Below, piece by piece: positions 1 through 10,180 of a stretch of DNA of 64,000 nt. The first letter of the stretch is position 1; each line of letters starts with the position of its first letter. Position numbers and translations under genes: made by a program. The notes under the pieces were generated by a model. That model made no database searches. It saw only the letters and a list, made by a program, of their open reading frames with translations, and had not been told where the DNA came from. This DNA comes from Pectobacterium atrosepticum (GTDB taxonomy: Bacteria; Pseudomonadota; Gammaproteobacteria; Enterobacterales; Enterobacteriaceae), in assembly GCA_019056595.1 (NCBI GenBank), contig CP036163.1, positions 1,488,001 through 1,552,000 of the forward strand, given 5' to 3'.

Positions 1-865
1 GACCGTCGCACTGACATCACCGTTCGTCGCCAATACTGATCCCGGCACGTTCACACTCCAGGTTTTGCCATCCGTATTGACGGTGGTCTGGTAGGTCTCG
101 GTACCCACGGTGACCGTCACCGCATCACCGGCCTTCACGTCGTTATCGACCTTACCGGTCACCGCAATGGTCTGACCCGACTCGCTGGCGTTAATCACGT
201 TATCCGACGTGACATTATCGATAGTAATCGACGCGGTGGGCGCAACGATATCCACGCCATAAGCGTGGCTGGTATTGGCGGTAGTGATATTGCCGGCGGT
301 ATCGCGCGTAGTGACCGTCGCACTGACATCACCATTCGCCGCTAATACCGATCCCGGCACATTGACGCTCCAGGTCTTGCCGTCAGTATTCACTGTCGTC
401 TGGTAGGTCTCGGTACCGACTTTCACGGTGACTGCATCGCCCGCTTTGACATCGTTATCGACATTACCCGTCACCGCGATGGTCTGACCCGACTCGCTGG
501 CATTAATGACGTTATCGGAGGTGACGTTATCAATAGTAATCGACGCCGTGGGTGCCACCGTATCCACACCGTAAGCATGACTGGTATCGGCGGTAGTCAC
601 GTTGCCTGCCGTATCACGGGTAGTGACCGTCGCGGAGATATCCGCGTTCGCCGCTAATACGGTGCCCGGCACATTGACGCTCCAGGTCTTGCCATCGGTA
701 TTGACGGTGGTCTGGTAGGTCTCGGTGCCAACAGTAACGGTCACCGCATCGCCCGCTTTCACGTCGTTATCGACCTTACCGGTGACGGCGATGGTCTGGC
801 CCGACTCGCTGGCATTAATCACGTTATCCGACGTGACATCGTCGATAGAAATTGAGGCAACGGGG
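1..865 (-). repeat. 312-bp tandem coding repeats (Ig-like adhesin domains)
   Basis: The same sequence recurs at exact 312-bp steps: CGACGCGGTGGG at 229-240, CGACGCCGTGGG at 541-552 and a diverged copy at 854-865. Each unit codes 104 residues beginning near ASITIDNVTSDNVINASESG and ending in a DTAGN(V/I)TTA motif. Copies are nearly identical at DNA level, so recombination and copy-number variation are likely, and the array continues past the left edge. Confidence 0.92.
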
Positions 866-1668
866 GGCAAGGTATCAACTGTTACCGCTTCACTTCCCCC
901 TGTGCCAGGAATGCCCGCAGCATCGGTGTAACTGCCGTCAGGGATGCTGACACGGACTTCTCCCTCAAAATTGGCGGCTGGCGTCAATGTCGCCGTCCAG
1001 CGGGTAGGATCGCTAGGGTCTTGTACCAGATTCGTTATGGAGCCATTTGTTACACTGACATCACTGAGGTCAAAACCGACGGGGGGTCTTGTGAAAACAA
1101 AACTGATTGTGCCGTCACTATTGATGATAATGGTGACAGAAGACGGTGTGGTATCGGTAATATCCGTTGCGGCAGTAAGCAACGTAGATGAATCTGCGCC
1201 ATCCAGAACAGATGAAGCTCTGTCAGTAAACGATATACCTGCCGTATCATAACCAATCGGGGCCGTCACGACATCACCCGTTAGGTCCAGTACCACCGTT
1301 GAATTGAAATGCCCGCCACCGCCGTCACCTGCTTCGCCAGTGTTATCATTACCAGCGGCAGTCGCCTCTAGCACTTGCGTTGGGTCGGCACCCTGAGCGA
1401 TAGCATCTTGTATAGCAGCGACATCATTGGCGACATCCGCATTTTTCTGAGAAGACGCACTGCTTACATCGCTCCAGCGGCTATCGCGTCCCAGATCCAG
1501 TGTCTTGCCATCTGGCAACGTGATTGAAACCGCGCCGTTAGCCCCGGTTACCACTTCTTCACCGCTGTAAACCCGATCGCCAGCAACCAACAGTCTCTGG
1601 CTCCCATCAAGCGCGACGATAAAAACCTGTCCAATAACGAATTTAATGACGCCAATCACACTATTCAA
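1..1668 (-). CDS. Giant repetitive surface adhesin, LapA/BapA-like, N-terminal part (runs off left edge)
   Basis: No stop codon occurs between the proposed TTG start (1668) and the window edge, so only about 556 residues are visible. An AAGGGG ribosome site lies 8 nt before the TTG. Residues 1-70 (MNSVIGVIKFVIGQVFIVAL, then a DGxxLDLGRDSRW segment) match the N-terminal retention module of LapA-type adhesins. A TAAG motif at residues 103-106 followed by a Gly-rich linker (GDGGGG) sits where the periplasmic protease LapG cleaves LapA. After about residue 270 come Ig-like repeats of 104 residues. Such proteins are exported by type I secretion and held in the outer membrane by the N-terminal plug; the exporter is encoded divergently. 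No signal peptide is present, as expected. Function is inferred from family and context; the C-terminal secretion signal and total length lie outside the window. Confidence 0.88.
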   Translation of the reverse strand, partial: MNSVIGVIKFVIGQVFIVALDGSQRLLVAGDRVYSGEEVVTGANGAVSITLPDGKTLDLGRDSRWSDVSSASSQKNADVANDVAAIQDAIAQGADPTQVLEATAAGNDNTGEAGDGGGGHFNSTVVLDLTGDVVTAPIGYDTAGISFTDRASSVLDGADSSTLLTAATDITDTTPSSVTIIINSDGTISFVFTRPPVGFDLSDVSVTNGSITNLVQDPSDPTRWTATLTPAANFEGEVRVSIPDGSYTDAAGIPGTGGSEAVTVDTLPPVASISIDDVTSDNVINASESGQTIAVTGKVDNDVKAGDAVTVTVGTETYQTTVNTDGKTWSVNVPGTVLAANADISATVTTRDTAGNVTTADTSHAYGVDTVAPTASITIDNVTSDNVINASESGQTIAVTGNVDNDVKAGDAVTVKVGTETYQTTVNTDGKTWSVNVPGSVLAANGDVSATVTTRDTAGNITTANTSHAYGVDIVAPTASITIDNVTSDNVINASESGQTIAVTGKVDNDVKAGDAVTVTVGTETYQTTVNTDGKTWSVNVPGSVLATNGDVSATV

Positions 1669-2048
1669 AATTCTTTCCCCTTGATATCTATAATTATTTT
1701 TGTGATATTGAGATATTGCAGCTATAGATTTTGGCTATCATCCTGATAAAGTTGATTTGCTGTGTGTCGTCCTGACATTTAAAAAAAAACGCTACGATAG
1801 TGCTGCCGTTATGCGTCAAACGCTTGACTCAATGAGCGATATAATAAAAAATTCAGAATATTCTTTCCAGAACTTTACTCACTTAGAGTAGCCCTTATTT
1901 TTCTTGTATTAGGGCCCTTCAGGAATTGAAGTTAACACATTGATATAAAACGAATAAAATCAAATCAATTCGTTAAGCGCTTATATAACACCCAAGCACC
2001 CTAATAGGAATAATCACAAATAAAGTTTTTTGTGAAGGAAAACTGCTG
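1669..2048. promoter_or_regulatory. Divergent AT-rich intergenic region between adhesin and its secretion operon
   Basis: This 380-bp region lies between the adhesin (leftward) and the TolC-like gene (rightward), so it must carry promoters for both unless the latter is read from elsewhere. It is strongly AT-rich (for example around 1835-1860 and 1935-1995), the type of DNA often bound by H-NS. I could not identify a convincing -35/-10 pair or a named operator. Confidence 0.5.
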
Positions 2049-3401
2049 ATGATTCGTAGATACCGTTTTATTTTATTACCTTTTATTACTTTTTTTTCCA
2101 CAGCGACGTATGCCGATACGATCCAAGAAGCAATAAAAAGTACGCTCTACACACATCCCGAAGTGAGCGCATCCATTAATAGCCGTTTTTCTGCCGAACA
2201 CGATTTGCGCGCAGCAAAAGGTGGATATCTTCCTTCCATCACGCTGAGTGCAGGTGCTGGCCGCGAAGAGACAGACAGCCCCTCAACACGCTCCAGTATC
2301 AATAAACGTGTTGAGCTAAGCAGACAGGAATCAAGCATCAATCTGAGCCAGACGGTATTTGATGGCTTTGCCACTTCCAGCGAAGTGGGCAGACAGCGTG
2401 CGACTGTTAATTCACGTGCCTATAAAGTATTAAATACCAGTGAAGCAACGGCGTTAGATGCTGTTCAGGTGTACCTCAATGTGCTGCAACGCCAGGAATT
2501 CGTGCGTTTAGCAGAAGCCAACCTTACAAGCCATGAGCGTATTTACGATCAAATAAAGCTGCGCAGCGAGCAAGGCGTTGGGAGATTGGCCGATCTGGAT
2601 CAGGCTGAAGCGCGTTTAGCACAAGCGCGCAACAACATGCTGACAGAAAAAACCAATCTGGATGATGCCAAAATCAACTACATGAGCGTTGTAGGGAAAG
2701 TACCTGAGAGTTTGGTCGTGCCCGATGCGTCTGCGATAAAACTCCCCGCCTCATTGGAGGAAGCACAGCGCATCATGCTGGCGAACAGCCCGGCGCTGAA
2801 ATCTGCAGAGTCAGATATTGAAGCCACTCAGCAACAGTATGAAACTTCAAAATCAACGTTTTATCCACGTCTCAATGTTGAACTCTCTCGCACAATGGAT
2901 AACAACGTTGACGGGACACGCGGCCAAAACAATGAGTGGCAGGCGATGCTACGGATGCGCTACAACCTGTATGAAGGCGGTAGCAGCAAGGCCAACATGG
3001 AATCCAAAGCTTATCAGGTAAAAGAAGCACAGGATGTCCGAAATAATGCTCTGCGCCTGCTGAATGAAGAACTCAAGCTAGCCTGGTCAGCGTTAAACAA
3101 CTCCCGTCAGCAGGTTCCGATTGCCGCTGAATACGCGGACCGCAGTATGAAAGTACGTACCGCCTATCAGAAGCAATTTGGTCTGGGGGAAAGGACGCTA
3201 TTGGACTTGCTAGACAGCGAAAACGAGCTATTCACCGCGCAACGCCGTCTGGTCGAGGTTCGCTTCATCGCCCTCTATACCGAATACCGGATCACATCAC
3301 GCATGGGAGAGCTATTAAACCGTTTATCGATCCCAGCTCCTGATGCGGGTACCAGCTTGACAAACATGACAACCCACGCAGAGTTGCCAAGCCTCAATTA
3401 A
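2049..3401 (+). CDS. TolC-family outer-membrane factor of the type I secretion system (LapE-like)
   Basis: Outer-membrane channel of a type I secretion system, 450 residues. A signal peptide (MIRRYRFILLPFITFFSTATYA, cut before DTIQEA) is followed by two outer-membrane-efflux repeats rich in heptad-like helices. The C-terminal motif around GERTLLDLLDSENELFTAQR is typical of this family. The ATG is preceded by GAAGGA. It is the first gene of an operon with the ABC exporter and fusion protein (78-nt gap). With the adhesin encoded divergently, it probably forms the exit duct for that adhesin. It is a dedicated paralogue, not housekeeping TolC, judged by context. Confidence 0.9.
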   Translation: MIRRYRFILLPFITFFSTATYADTIQEAIKSTLYTHPEVSASINSRFSAEHDLRAAKGGYLPSITLSAGAGREETDSPSTRSSINKRVELSRQESSINLSQTVFDGFATSSEVGRQRATVNSRAYKVLNTSEATALDAVQVYLNVLQRQEFVRLAEANLTSHERIYDQIKLRSEQGVGRLADLDQAEARLAQARNNMLTEKTNLDDAKINYMSVVGKVPESLVVPDASAIKLPASLEEAQRIMLANSPALKSAESDIEATQQQYETSKSTFYPRLNVELSRTMDNNVDGTRGQNNEWQAMLRMRYNLYEGGSSKANMESKAYQVKEAQDVRNNALRLLNEELKLAWSALNNSRQQVPIAAEYADRSMKVRTAYQKQFGLGERTLLDLLDSENELFTAQRRLVEVRFIALYTEYRITSRMGELLNRLSIPAPDAGTSLTNMTTHAELPSLN

Positions 3402-3479
3402 TATATTTCATTAGTCAGACGGCGATAAATTATGGTTTATATGCGAGTGAATTACGTTGCGTAAGGGACGTTCAGTTAA

Positions 3480-5696
3480 ATGAAGTTGCATTCAGTAGAA
3501 GAGACGAAGGGTTCTGATGAATCAGTCGCCCATGAGCCTATCGTTCATGAACCCATCGTCTATGAAAATAGCGACCCTCGCAGCCGTCACGATGATCCTT
3601 TATTGGATAGTTTGCTGATCCTCTGTACTTTACAGGGGAAATCCGTCAGCCGTACTACACTCACCGCCGGGCTACCGTTAGCCAACCAGAGGTTGTCCGT
3701 AAAATTGCTCCCAAGAGCCGCTGCACGTGCGGGATTACAAGGACGCGTTCTCAAGCGTTCTCTGAATAAAATTTCTGAGATGTCGCTCCCTGCAATGCTG
3801 TTATTACGGGAAGGAAGAGCGGCGATTCTGTTAGGTTGGAACCCTGACGGTAGTGCACGCCTGATGCCCAGTGAGACAGAAGGCGGAGAAATTTCCGTTG
3901 AGCACAATACACTGCAACAAAATTACCTTGGTTTGGTGATGTTCGCCCAGCCTCGCCATCAGTTCGATCTACAGAACCCGTCTCTGATTCCTCGCACCAA
4001 ATCCTGGTTCAAGGATACGCTTAAGCTTTCACGTTCGCTCTATCTCGATGCCATTCTCGCCAGTTTACTGGTGAACATTATCGCGCTTGCCACACCGTTG
4101 TTCGTGATGAATGTCTATGACAGGGTCGTGCCTAATCAGTCAACAGCGACATTGTGGGTGCTGGCTATCGGCGTTACCGGTGCTTTTGTTTTCGATTTGA
4201 TACTCAAAACACTGCGCGGCATTTGTCTCGATATGGCGGGCAAAAAAACCGATCTGATTATTTCAGCCACGTTATTTGAACGTATTACCGGTATGTCGAT
4301 GAAGGCTCGGCCAGCACGGGTCGGTAGCTTTGCACAAAATATCCATGAATTTCAGTCGCTCAGAGATTTCCTTTCTTCACTGACGCTGACGACGCTGATC
4401 GATTTTCCTTTTACGCTGCTTCTGCTGTTGGTTATCGGCATCATCGGCGGCCCACTGGTCTGGGTTTCCATACTGGCCTACCCGATTGCCCTATTGGCGA
4501 GTTGGGCGATGCAAAAACCGCTGTCCGCTACGATCGAGAAAACGATGCACCTTGCCAGTGAACGGCAGGCTACGTTGATCGAAACGTTGAGCTGTCTGGA
4601 TGCGATCAAGGTCAACAATGCGGAAAGCGAACGGCAGCACCAGTGGGAACAGACGATTGGCAGCCTGAGCAAGCTGGAAATGCGGGTGAAAGCGTTATCC
4701 TCACTGGCGGTGAATCTGACGCAGTGGTTCCAGCAATTTGCTGGCGTTGCCATGATTGTCGTCGGTGTCTATATGCTGATTAACGGCAAACTCAGCATGG
4801 GTGGACTTATTGCCTGTTACATGTTGAACGGCAGAGCGCTCATGCCGTTAGGCCAACTGTCTGGCTTGGTCAGCCGTTACCAGCAGGCACGTTTAACGAT
4901 GCAAACGACTGAACAGATGATGCAACTGCCGCAAGAACGTAGCGATAACGAACGCCCACTAAAGCGCGAAAGCATCCGAGGTGGCATCGAATTTCGCGAT
5001 GTGACGTTCAATTATCCAGAACAAAAAACCAGTTCGCTGCAAAGCATCAGCCTGACTATCGCTCCCGGCGAGAAAGTGGGCGTCATTGGCCGCAGCGGCT
5101 CCGGTAAAAGTTCGCTACAAAAGCTGATCGTGAATCTCTATCAGCCGGATGCGGGCAATATTCTGATCGATGGTGTCGATGCCCGTCAGTTGGATGTCAG
5201 CGATTTGCGCCACAATATTGGCTATGTTCCTCAGGATATTCAGTTATTCAGCGGATCGCTGCGCAATAATCTCATTAGCGGCGCACGCTATGTCGAAGAC
5301 GAAGCTATGTTGCGAGCCGCCGAAATTTCTGGGGTGAACGAGTTTGCACGTCTGCACCCCGATGGTTACAACCTTCAGGTTGGCGAACGTGGTCAACAAC
5401 TCTCCGGCGGGCAGCGTCAGGCTGTCGCAATAGCCAGGGCGCTGTTGCTCGATCCGCCGATTCTGGTGCTCGATGAACCCACCAGTTCGATGGATAACAC
5501 CAGCGAAGATCGACTAAAGCAGGCTCTGGCCCCCGTGATTGCCGAGAAAACGCTCTTGCTGGTCACCCATCGGGTTTCCATGCTAGCGCTGGTCGATCGT
5601 TTAGTGATTGTCGACAGAGGTAAAATTATTGCTGATGGGCCGAAAGCGATCGTGATGGACGCGTTGAAGAAGGGGCAGATCAATGCGTCTCGGTAA
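3480..5696 (+). CDS. Type I secretion ABC transporter (LapB-like, degenerate C39 peptidase domain)
   Basis: Inner-membrane ATPase of the type I exporter, 738 residues. Residues about 35-155 resemble a C39-like domain, but I see no catalytic Cys/His arrangement, so it should bind substrate and not cleave a leader. Membrane helices lie about 190-450. The nucleotide-binding domain has Walker A GRSGSGKS (537-544), Q-loop YVPQDIQ, signature LSGGQ (641-645), Walker B LVLDEP (about 662) and H-loop VTHR. The reading frame overlaps the next gene by 14 nt, indicating translational coupling. The predicted cargo is the divergently encoded adhesin. Confidence 0.92.
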   Translation: MKLHSVEETKGSDESVAHEPIVHEPIVYENSDPRSRHDDPLLDSLLILCTLQGKSVSRTTLTAGLPLANQRLSVKLLPRAAARAGLQGRVLKRSLNKISEMSLPAMLLLREGRAAILLGWNPDGSARLMPSETEGGEISVEHNTLQQNYLGLVMFAQPRHQFDLQNPSLIPRTKSWFKDTLKLSRSLYLDAILASLLVNIIALATPLFVMNVYDRVVPNQSTATLWVLAIGVTGAFVFDLILKTLRGICLDMAGKKTDLIISATLFERITGMSMKARPARVGSFAQNIHEFQSLRDFLSSLTLTTLIDFPFTLLLLLVIGIIGGPLVWVSILAYPIALLASWAMQKPLSATIEKTMHLASERQATLIETLSCLDAIKVNNAESERQHQWEQTIGSLSKLEMRVKALSSLAVNLTQWFQQFAGVAMIVVGVYMLINGKLSMGGLIACYMLNGRALMPLGQLSGLVSRYQQARLTMQTTEQMMQLPQERSDNERPLKRESIRGGIEFRDVTFNYPEQKTSSLQSISLTIAPGEKVGVIGRSGSGKSSLQKLIVNLYQPDAGNILIDGVDARQLDVSDLRHNIGYVPQDIQLFSGSLRNNLISGARYVEDEAMLRAAEISGVNEFARLHPDGYNLQVGERGQQLSGGQRQAVAIARALLLDPPILVLDEPTSSMDNTSEDRLKQALAPVIAEKTLLLVTHRVSMLALVDRLVIVDRGKIIADGPKAIVMDALKKGQINASR

Positions 5697-7044
5697 ATAT
5701 ATCAAACGAATCAAACGATATTTTGTCGGCGGAGACGAAGAAAGCCTGCAAACGATGCCAGAAGTGAGTCGGGCAATGGCTGAGGATTCGCCACGCTCTA
5801 TTCGCTTCACGCTATGGGCTATCGGTGCTTTTTTCCTGTTTTTCATCCTGTGGGCCGGGCTTGCGAATATTGATGAAGTCACTCGGGGCGATGGGAAAGC
5901 GATCCCTTCTTCTCGGCTACAAAAAATCCAAAATCTGGAAGGTGGCATTGTCACAGAAGTGTTCATCCGTGAGGGTCAGGTGGTTAATGCAGGCGACCCT
6001 TTACTGCGCCTTGATGATACGCGTTTTGCTTCTAACGTCGGTGAAACCGAAGCCGATCGGCTTGCGCTACTGTCACGAATTGAGCGCCTGACTGCCGAAA
6101 TCAGCGGTCAGGAGTTAGTGCTTTCAGAAGAAATTACGACGCAAGCACCTAAAGTCGCGGCAGGAGAAAAAGAGCTTTATAACAGCCGCCGTCAGCAGCT
6201 TCATAATGAGATATCCGGCTTGGAAGAGCAGTTGATTCAGCGCCGTCAGGAACTGAGGGATTTCTCTGCCAAGGAGATTCAGTTCCGCAATAGTCTAGGC
6301 CTGCTTCAGCAAGAAATTAAAATGTCAGAACCGCTGATCGCAGAAGGCGCCATTTCTAAAGTAGAAGTTTTACGCCTGCGCCGTGCTGAAGTCGAAACCC
6401 GTGGTCAGCTTGATTCTATCAAACTCTCCATACCACGGGCGGAGTCCGCGACTAAAGAGAGCGAGAATAAAATAGAGGAAACGCGCAGCCGCTATAGAAG
6501 CGAAGCGTTATCTCAGCTCAGCGAAGCACAAACTAACCTAAACAAAATTGAAGCCACGGGTAAAGCACTCGAAGATCGCGTAAACCGAACGCTGGTTGTG
6601 TCTCCTGTTCGCGGTATCGTGCAGCAGGTTTTGGTGAATACCATCGGTGGAGTGATTCAACCGGGTAGTGATCTGGTGGAAATTGTTCCGCTGGATGACA
6701 AATTGTTAGTCGAAGCTAAAATTCGCCCTCAGGATATTGCCTTTTTGCACCCAGGTCAGGATGCCATAATAAAATTGACAGCCTATGACTACACCATCTA
6801 CGGCGGTTTAAAAGGTCAGTTGGAACAAATTAGCCCAGACACCGTAACGGATAAAGAAGGGAATAGTTTTTATATTATTCGGCTACGGACTGATAAGAAT
6901 TATTTAGGTTCAGCCGATAAACCCCTTCTTATCATTCCTGGCATGGTGGCCTCTGTTGATATAATAACGGGAAAGAAAACCATCCTCAGTTATTTGTTAA
7001 AGCCGATTATTCGCGCAAAAGCAGAAGCACTACGCGAAAGATAA
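5683..7044 (+). CDS. HlyD-family membrane fusion protein of type I secretion (LapC-like)
   Basis: Periplasmic adaptor linking ABC exporter and outer-membrane factor, 453 residues. It has a short basic cytoplasmic N-terminus, one membrane helix (about residues 42-61), a biotinyl-lipoyl-like half-motif (KIQNLEGGIVTEVFIREGQ), a long coiled-coil hairpin (about 130-310, Glu/Gln/Arg-rich) and a C-terminal beta-barrel containing the conserved PGMVASVDIITGKK segment. It starts inside the end of the ABC gene and is followed immediately by a strong terminator, closing the three-gene operon. Confidence 0.93.
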   Translation: MRLGKYIKRIKRYFVGGDEESLQTMPEVSRAMAEDSPRSIRFTLWAIGAFFLFFILWAGLANIDEVTRGDGKAIPSSRLQKIQNLEGGIVTEVFIREGQVVNAGDPLLRLDDTRFASNVGETEADRLALLSRIERLTAEISGQELVLSEEITTQAPKVAAGEKELYNSRRQQLHNEISGLEEQLIQRRQELRDFSAKEIQFRNSLGLLQQEIKMSEPLIAEGAISKVEVLRLRRAEVETRGQLDSIKLSIPRAESATKESENKIEETRSRYRSEALSQLSEAQTNLNKIEATGKALEDRVNRTLVVSPVRGIVQQVLVNTIGGVIQPGSDLVEIVPLDDKLLVEAKIRPQDIAFLHPGQDAIIKLTAYDYTIYGGLKGQLEQISPDTVTDKEGNSFYIIRLRTDKNYLGSADKPLLIIPGMVASVDIITGKKTILSYLLKPIIRAKAEALRER

Positions 7045-7086: not shown

Positions 7087-8601
7087 TTAGTGATCGTTCA
7101 TGCTGTGATAAATCTGAGTTTGGCTTCGCCCCATAGCTTTAGCCTGATACATGGCAGAATCGGCATTAATTGCCAACGTCAGAGAGTCGGAACCGTGCTC
7201 TGGGTACAGAGCAATACCGATACTGCATGATATATCAAGCATTTTACCATTGATCTCAAAAGGTTTATTCAACGCGTTATGAATTTTATCTGCAACATAA
7301 AGTGTATTATCAATTTCTTTAATGCCCTGAAGCAGAATAATGAATTCATCACCGCTACGGCGATATACCGTATCTGAATCCCTAACCGCACCACGCATAC
7401 GTGCAGCGGCTTCTTTTAATAGCAAATCTCCGACAGCATGTCCGAATGAATCATTTATCTGTTTAAATTTATCGAGATCCAAGAACATCAGCGCGATTTT
7501 CCTGCCTGTTTGTTTAGATAACAAAATCGCCTGTTCCATTTGCTCGGCGAACGTCAGGCCGTTAGCCAATGATGTTAATGAGTCATAGTGCGCCAGTTGC
7601 CGATAGTGTTCCTCGCTGCGCCGCAGCATATCGATGGCATGATAGCGCTCAATAGCGATCGCAATCAGCTGTGCCGATTTCTCTATAGAGAAAATTTCGT
7701 CTTCGGTCGGCACATACACTTTGCGGTGGTAAACACTTAAAACACCTAATATTTCTTTGTTCTGACCGATGATAGGTTCAGACCAACAGGAACGCAGCCC
7801 AGCATATAATGCGAGCCCTTTGTACAGCGACCAATGTGGATGAACTGAGATATCATCAGCGACTACGCGTTTACCGGTATAAGCCGCTGTCCCAAAAGAA
7901 GCGACACCGTCGGCAATTTTCACGTTGTGAATGGCATTTTTATAAAAACCCGGCAGGCTCGGCGCAGATCCAAGCGTCAGACATTTCTTGTCTTTATCAA
8001 CTAGCAGTACAGAACAGACAATACGGCCAGGGTTTTTTTCCTCAACGCTGAAAATGATCGCATCCAGGATATCCTTCAGCGGCGCACCGCTTGATAACAG
8101 CTCTAGCGCACGATTGTATGAATTATCATGATGCTCCTGTGATTTTCGCTCCGTAATATCTAATTTAATGCCGACATACTGGGTCGTGTTACTCGCCTTA
8201 TTATATATTTTAACGATATTGGCCTTTTCCCAATACAACTGCCCATCTTTACGTCGGTTAACGAACTCACCACTCCAAACATTACCTTTATTTATGGTAG
8301 CCCACAGATCTTCATAGACGCTGGCATTGGTCATACCGGAGTTTAATATATTTGTTTTTTTGCCAATAACCTCATCCGGCATATAGCCAGACATGGTAAT
8401 AAACTGACGATTTACATAAATAATTTCACAATTTTCATCTGCGATCATAATTGAGGCAGGACTATATTCCATTGCAAAGAAAGTCATGTTGAGAAAATCT
8501 TGTTTTTTCTGCTCAGTTTTAAACTTTTGTTTAATTTTTCTATTTTTTACAGAAGAAAACAATAACAGTAGCAATAGTAGGGTTATTATAATTTCATACA
8601 C
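7087..8601 (-). CDS. Membrane PAS-GAF diguanylate cyclase with non-canonical SGDEF active site
   Basis: Predicted to make c-di-GMP from two GTP at the inner membrane; 504 residues. GTG start with GAGGAG 9 nt upstream. An N-terminal membrane helix (YEIIITLLLLLLLFSS) is followed by PAS/PAC (about 45-150), GAF (about 165-325) and a GGDEF domain (about 335-500). The active-site motif is SGDEF (416-420), so the first Gly is Ser. The inhibitory I-site RDSD (407-410) is kept five residues upstream, and DLDKFKQIND and the DSAMYQAK segment look intact. I recall the P. atrosepticum protein ECA3270, reported as an active cyclase with SGDEF that raises secreted adhesin levels; this looks like its orthologue. 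It converges on the secretion operon. Confidence 0.92.
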   Translation of the reverse strand: MYEIIITLLLLLLLFSSVKNRKIKQKFKTEQKKQDFLNMTFFAMEYSPASIMIADENCEIIYVNRQFITMSGYMPDEVIGKKTNILNSGMTNASVYEDLWATINKGNVWSGEFVNRRKDGQLYWEKANIVKIYNKASNTTQYVGIKLDITERKSQEHHDNSYNRALELLSSGAPLKDILDAIIFSVEEKNPGRIVCSVLLVDKDKKCLTLGSAPSLPGFYKNAIHNVKIADGVASFGTAAYTGKRVVADDISVHPHWSLYKGLALYAGLRSCWSEPIIGQNKEILGVLSVYHRKVYVPTEDEIFSIEKSAQLIAIAIERYHAIDMLRRSEEHYRQLAHYDSLTSLANGLTFAEQMEQAILLSKQTGRKIALMFLDLDKFKQINDSFGHAVGDLLLKEAAARMRGAVRDSDTVYRRSGDEFIILLQGIKEIDNTLYVADKIHNALNKPFEINGKMLDISCSIGIALYPEHGSDSLTLAINADSAMYQAKAMGRSQTQIYHSMNDH

Positions 8602-9388: not shown

Positions 9389-10180
9389 CTAAAGTTCAGG
9401 CTTCAATGCTTCAAAATTCTCAAATGGCTGGGGACGCGAGAGGTAGTAACCTTGGGCAGCATAAGCATGTGATGCCTGAACAATCGCCCATTCCTCCTGT
9501 GTTTCAATTCCCTCAATCACCACATAATTGCAAAAGCGCGATAGTAAAGCGATCAGAGCAGGAAAAACGGTCCGACCCTCACTACTTTGTTGTAGGAGAA
9601 TAAAAAGCTCACGCGCCACTTTGATACAGTCATACTGAGCCAGCATAAGTGATGAAAAATTCGCCATACCGCAGCCAAAATCATCCAGCCACAAGGTTTG
9701 TGCTTCAGGGAGCTTGGTTAATATTTCTTTCGGCAGCCCTCCCTGATTTTCGACCATTTCAAAACGAATCCAGGGCATCGCTGCGATCAGGCGCTTGGCT
9801 TCCAAATTATTCTGTAACGCCAGTAACGTCATGCCATCAATGTTGACAGAGGCAAAAAGATCGTCGCGAATAAATCGAAAATTCCACTGAGATAAAAGTT
9901 GCAGTTGTTCTACAATAATTAGAAGGCGGGTTTCAACATCAATATTTGCGAAGTATTTTTCAGGAGAGATAAATTTTTGCGGCAGGGTAGGAGAAAAAAC
10001 GGAAGTCAGTAACTCAATAGCCATTAATTTACCTGATGTTCGGTAAATGGGCTGAAAAGTATACCGCCGTTGGCATTGGTGCCAGTAATCAGCGCCTAAT
10101 GCTTCAGCGCTTCCCTGTTGGAAAAATCCTGCCCCAACCAGATTAAGATGACCTTCCTGCTGCACTATGAGTTCCGCCAT
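9389..10180 (-). CDS. Stand-alone EAL-domain c-di-GMP phosphodiesterase
   Basis: Predicted cytosolic phosphodiesterase hydrolysing c-di-GMP to pGpG; 263 residues, no membrane segment, no GGDEF partner domain. The signature is IELL (Glu56) instead of EAL/EVL. Metal and catalytic positions are present: Asn113 (VNID), Glu141 (FEMVE), Asp166-Asp167 (LDDFGCG), Lys187 (IKVAR), Glu223 (IEGIET) and Gln243 (AQGYYLSRP). It should therefore be active and oppose the neighbouring cyclase. It resembles the enteric YhjH/PdeH type in being a bare EAL domain. It appears to match P. atrosepticum ECA3271, recalled as lowering secreted adhesin. Confidence 0.9.
   Translation of the reverse strand: MAELIVQQEGHLNLVGAGFFQQGSAEALGADYWHQCQRRYTFQPIYRTSGKLMAIELLTSVFSPTLPQKFISPEKYFANIDVETRLLIIVEQLQLLSQWNFRFIRDDLFASVNIDGMTLLALQNNLEAKRLIAAMPWIRFEMVENQGGLPKEILTKLPEAQTLWLDDFGCGMANFSSLMLAQYDCIKVARELFILLQQSSEGRTVFPALIALLSRFCNYVVIEGIETQEEWAIVQASHAYAAQGYYLSRPQPFENFEALKPEL

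Follow-up and report, generated by a model that had tools for sequence, protein, structure and literature searches.

The multi-repeat adhesin MRP of Pectobacterium atrosepticum and its predicted LapA-type hold-or-release switch

Introduction

A well-described counterpart of the locus studied here is the LapA-LapD-LapG system of Pseudomonas fluorescens Pf0-1. Experiments in P. fluorescens place the cleavage of LapA at A108/A109 and show that an AA-RR variant is resistant (PMC3032545), and the features named for LapD are GWxQ, a degenerate RGGEF and KVL (PMC3032553). One protease can serve several adhesins (PMC13090378), and LapG of Vibrio cholerae cuts LapA and two adhesins of its own host (PMC6890996). 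The title of PMC9180339 assigns a von Willebrand-type domain to LapA of P. putida. In Desulfovibrio vulgaris, the DvhA/DvhG/DvhD system combines a retention domain with a [T/A/P]AAG motif cut by a calcium-dependent BTLCP protease, as in LapA-type systems, but its c-di-GMP receptor is an HD-GYP protein with a dCache domain, where the locus described below has LapD (PMC13090378).

The adhesin of P. atrosepticum has a literature of its own. Table 2 of PMC3032553 lists, under Erwinia carotovora, ECA3263 as LapG-like, ECA3264 as LapD-like and ECA3266 as a LapA-like adhesin with the putative cleavage site QDAIAQGADPTQVLEATAAGNDNTGEAG, and ECA3266 is aligned with LapA in a supplementary figure of PMC3032545. 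PMC6584795 also groups ECA3266 with the type I secretion of the multi-repeat adhesin MRP, places ECA3270 and ECA3271 in its column 'DGC or PDE' and describes the LapA-type process as one that P. atrosepticum shares. ECA3270 has kept cyclase activity with an SGDEF motif and is a regulator of type 1 secretion (PMC3974145). The cluster is found in all Pectobacterium species compared in PMC6963963, where the MRP gene varies widely in size, and MRP has been characterised with respect to potato root adherence (PMC12310338). No cleavage experiment on this adhesin was found in the literature searched, whose coverage takes in few subscription papers.

We analysed a stretch of 64,000 nucleotides of the P. 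atrosepticum genome (the window; C2:1488001-1552000). Its first 1668 nucleotides very probably (about 0.93) encode the N-terminal end of MRP (ECA3266), a LapA-type adhesin that is either held or cut loose by a LapG/LapD switch. Gene content, motifs, family membership and conservation are results of this analysis, and retention, cleavage and c-di-GMP control are carried over from P. fluorescens. The LapA-type reading is correct, well supported and already known; it is not new, because the adhesin, its partners and a putative cut site have been in print since 2011 (PMC3032553).

Results

The minus-strand frame at positions 1..1668 comprises the N-terminal 556 codons of the adhesin and runs past the left edge of the window, where the adjoining DNA completes the gene. 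The whole gene (G000:C2:1479790-1489668, equivalent to L002:9790-19668, minus strand) encodes a type I-secreted adhesin of 3292 aa. Translation starts with a TTG codon at position 1668, preceded by the ribosome-site-like stretch AAGGGGAAAG, which lies in the divergent intergenic region (1669..2048) between the adhesin and the secretion genes. At the equivalent place, 24 relatives have TTG (14), GTG (9) or ATG (1). The closest relatives of the N-terminal 264 residues are Pectobacterium proteins with at most 94% identity in the best segment, although nearer records may be missing. Adhesin frames across the genus range from 2381 to 5418 aa (single-contig genomes other than G168, which has 558). 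In G168 (L063), the adhesin frame is open for those 558 aa only, despite a lapG about 16 kb away, which suggests that the gene is broken or wrongly sequenced.

The original prediction had described a plug-like N-terminal domain, and residues 4-144 (1237..1659, minus strand) indeed match the LapA-type retention module NF033682 (retention_LapA) with 117.4 bits, well over the cut-off of 50. This module is the single NF033682 match in the genome (121.8 bits in the genome search, E <= 0.001). An NCBIfam scan with the full 3292-aa adhesin does not list the retention family, although the genome search and the query of 556 aa both do; the length and repetitiveness of the full query probably account for this. 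The N-terminus also aligns with a characterised module: by sequence, the 'cell surface anchoring domain' 5ix9 is the only solved-structure match below E 0.01 (E 3.3e-12), and Foldseek too gives it alone at E <= 0.001 (E 1.2e-4, probability 1.00, target TM 0.78), with 36% identity across the fold alignment. The predicted structure of the domain is of modest quality (mean pLDDT 54.4); its blocks over residues 1-70 average 70-80, with strands to residue 66, and a helix at 76-91 is predicted at low confidence. 5ix9 is the anchoring domain of the antifreeze adhesin of Marinomonas primoryensis, a different host. It is N-terminal too, and its aligned tail carries PAAG at the place of our TAAG. The idea that this LapG serves a second adhesin was considered and rejected, as a search limited to adhesins with a retention module gave one such module in the genome at E <= 0.001.

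The TAAG di-alanine motif, a putative LapG site, lies where the original prediction had put it, at residues 103-106 (1351..1362, minus strand), just after the retention module as is usual for LapA-type adhesins. From residue 98 onward, pLDDT falls below 50, and the model leads us to read the stretch that holds TAAG as a probable flexible linker; the predicted Gly-rich linker is likewise present in the N-terminal part. In modules of other genomes, [TAP]AAG stands at the aligned place in 39 of 39 cases (33 TAAG, 4 AAAG, 2 PAAG), a set made up of 24 other genomes of the genus and, from 14 further genomes of the family, 15 loci. A simple pattern search recovers the site in 21 of 24 relatives (18 TAAG, 2 PAAG, 1 AAAG), and these two sets overlap and are thus not independent. 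The three relatives without the pattern are L026, which has TAAD, L028, whose frame is broken ahead of the site, and L029, whose translation stops short of it. Neither alanine varies and the glycine changes just once (TAAD, L026) in an alignment of 18 modules, namely that of the window and those of 17 of the 24 relatives (leaving out L008-L012, L028 and L029).

From composition, 0.036 TAAG would be expected within the first 265 residues, and the motif found is the sole [TAP]AAG in all 3292; together with its conserved place in the two sets above, this rules out a chance string. Two relatives differ at or near the site. In Brenneria salicis (L026, 8980-9459), TAAD occurs where the other 17 aligned modules have AAG, a natural change just past the scissile bond region, and in Candidatus Symbiopectobacterium endolongispinus (L028, 10001-10450) the frame breaks shortly ahead of the cleavage motif.

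Beyond the linker, the window encodes a non-repeat bacterial Ig-like domain (Big_12, residues 182-264; 877..1125, minus strand; PF19078, 57.6 bits against a cut-off of 27) and the first three Ig-like repeats (1..867, minus strand; NF012196), the third of which is cut by the window end. The repeat period is exactly 104 residues, with 22 units across the whole adhesin; NCBIfam counts 23 Ig_like_ice and 23 Ca_tandemer stretches in the full 3292-aa protein. Identity among all 22 units averages 89.3% in protein (79-96%) and 81.4% in DNA (72-89%), and 77% of the differing codons are synonymous (summed over pairs). For the three units in the window, identity is 81-85% at the DNA level and 89-96% at the protein level, and their longest exact run is 29 bases. 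The period of 104 residues had thus been foreseen correctly, but the 'near-identical DNA' attributed to the repeats was an overstatement, given these DNA identities within the window and across all 22 units. As far as sequence comparison can tell, the pattern is one of constraint at the protein level, with DNA that has diverged. A recent amplification of the repeats is ruled out by the mean DNA identity of 81% and the mostly synonymous differences. We read the long plus-strand open reading frames across the repeats as mirror frames of the adhesin gene.

The C-terminal part of the adhesin carries RTX repeats (HemolysinCabind, Pfam) and the protein ends in a T1SS_VCA0849 type I secretion domain (NCBIfam, whole protein), so that extender repeats in tandem, RTX repeats and a type I secretion signal at the C-terminus are all in place, as expected of LapA-type adhesins. 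Since Pfam gave RTX repeats alone above the cut-off over the C-terminal 616 residues, no ligand-binding domain was identified there. A von Willebrand-type domain was detected neither by NCBIfam in the whole protein nor by Pfam in the N-terminal 556 and C-terminal 736 residues.

The genes for both regulatory partners lie 8.7-11.4 kb to the left of the window, beyond the 3' end of the adhesin gene. The original prediction had correctly stated that the window itself holds neither: LapG and LapD are the sole genome matches for PF06035 and PF16448 (E <= 0.001), at C2:1476652-1477740, left of the window start at C2:1488001. The genome thus has a LapG-like protease, and the extension to the left, which the prediction had proposed, supplied the 22 repeats, the RTX and type I signal, lapG and lapD. 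LapG (L002:6607-7296) is an NF045674 equivalog (380.7 bits against a cut-off of 320) and aligns with the solved structures 4u65 and 4fgo, with GDCED, AH and LD positions in common. Its C-H-D residues, assigned by motif as in the LapG family, are C114, H149 and D166 (GDCED, KAH, LDN), to which we assume the catalytic roles belong. LapD (L002:7306-9258) is an equivalog as well (1080.4 bits against a cut-off of 1020) and aligns with the solved 3pjw and 3pjv. It shows the marks of a LapD receptor, with a LapD_MoxY_N periplasmic domain, GWEQ at 124-127, RGGEF at 317 and KVL at 446.

Divergent from the adhesin, three type I secretion genes lie close by (2049-7044). They encode a TolC-family outer membrane channel, LapE-like (2049..3401, plus strand; TIGR01844, 305.9 bits against a cut-off of 225.15), a type I secretion ABC transporter of the LssB/LapB type (3480..5696, plus strand; TIGR03375, 982.9 bits against 693.1) and a HlyD-family membrane fusion protein, LapC-like (5683..7044, plus strand; TIGR01843, 436.7 bits against 208.65). 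Their place suggests that this TolC/LssB/HlyD system serves the adhesin. Next to it are a PAS-GAF-GGDEF protein with an SGDEF active-site motif at aa 416 (7087..8601, minus strand; Pfam and motif), which by motif and place appears to correspond to ECA3270, and an EAL-domain protein (9389..10180, minus strand; PF00563, 98 bits against a cut-off of 31.3), a candidate counterpart of ECA3271. With its non-standard SGDEF motif and its EAL domain, this pair beside the secretion genes resembles ECA3270 and ECA3271, which are named for P. atrosepticum.

Retention module and LapG were each found in 25 of 25 genomes of the genus, our own genome included, and none of these LapG matches has an internal stop. 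In a family sample of 149 genomes, the retention module is present in 15 and LapG in the same 15 (Fisher test, p ~7e-21, a value that ignores shared ancestry). The LapD N-domain exceeds its cut-off in those 15 of 149 and gives a weak match, under the cut-off, in one more (G014). Among 14 control genomes, Caulobacter vibrioides alone matches PF06035 (over the cut-off) as well as NF033682 and NF045674 (both under the cut-off); PF16448 has no match in the 14. Two of the 15 family LapG matches contain an internal stop (G113 and G117, loci L036 and L037). In-frame stops interrupt both the adhesin frame and LapG of G113, whose LapD frame is a short one of 144 aa. G117 combines an in-frame stop in LapG with open frames for the retention module and LapD, as would fit an adhesin that could be held but not released.

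Discussion

The locus reproduces the P. fluorescens Pf0-1 system in its retention module, di-alanine site, LapG, LapD motifs and type I secretion genes. It differs in the position of the site (104/105 here, 108/109 in Pf0-1) and in its secretion genes, which are divergent from the adhesin. Compared with the described MRP/ECA3266 system, residues 87-114 here match the printed peptide QDAIAQGADPTQVLEATAAGNDNTGEAG exactly, which points to P. atrosepticum or a close relative, the ABC transporter marked as present in Table 2 of PMC3032553 has its counterpart among the same kinds of genes, and an SGDEF protein adjoins, as for ECA3270. The two adhesins were compared by this peptide alone and their repeat numbers may differ. 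The original view that this adhesin can be held or shed is hence supported, as a prediction, by a LapG equivalog, a LapD and an N-terminus that fits the retention family.

By analogy with P. fluorescens, the switch probably works as follows. The C-terminal RTX repeats and type I signal would thread the adhesin out through the adjoining TolC/LssB/HlyD secreton, and the folded retention module would stay periplasmic and plug the TolC channel, so that the adhesin would hang on the cell surface. At high c-di-GMP, the receptor LapD, whose GGDEF and EAL sites are degenerate, would hold the cysteine protease LapG. At low c-di-GMP, LapG would be freed to cut TAAG between A104 and A105, and the adhesin would be shed.

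Alternatively, MRP could be a common RTX adhesin of the type I-secreted kind, set free immediately on export and with an N-terminal domain that has no holding role. Its C-terminal RTX repeats and T1SS signal do resemble those of freely secreted substrates, and the table in the review PMC6584795 speaks of secretion of the multi-repeat adhesin. Release on export nevertheless seems very improbable in view of the match to the retention-family profile, the [TAP]AAG in all 39 aligned modules, the nearby lapG-lapD pair and the fact that module and LapG mark the same set of 15 genomes out of 149. That the adhesin is held permanently, the protease step having been lost in this strain, is scarcely credible: two relatives (G113, G117) do have an in-frame LapG stop, and LapG and MRP are pseudogenes in P. 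c. subsp. odoriferum (PMC6963963), but the LapG, LapD and adhesin frames of our genome are open and stop-free, the signature residues of LapG and LapD are in place, and the 25 genus genomes are without a stop inside the LapG match.

With MRP read as a LapA-type adhesin under LapG/LapD control, this plant-associated enterobacterium carries all genes of a hold-or-release adhesin switch, with module and protease in every genome of the genus searched. Our small additions to the published picture are the co-occurrence counts of module and protease and the finding that the repeats are alike in protein and diverged in DNA. It is conceivable, though we consider it unlikely, that the SGDEF cyclase and the EAL protein form a dedicated local c-di-GMP supply for LapD. 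If so, export and retention of one adhesin would be set by one neighbourhood module and not by the cell-wide c-di-GMP pool.

A different arrangement occurs in one genome of another genus (G009), where two retention modules (L034 and L044) lie about 12 kb apart on opposite strands and the genome has a single LapG match.
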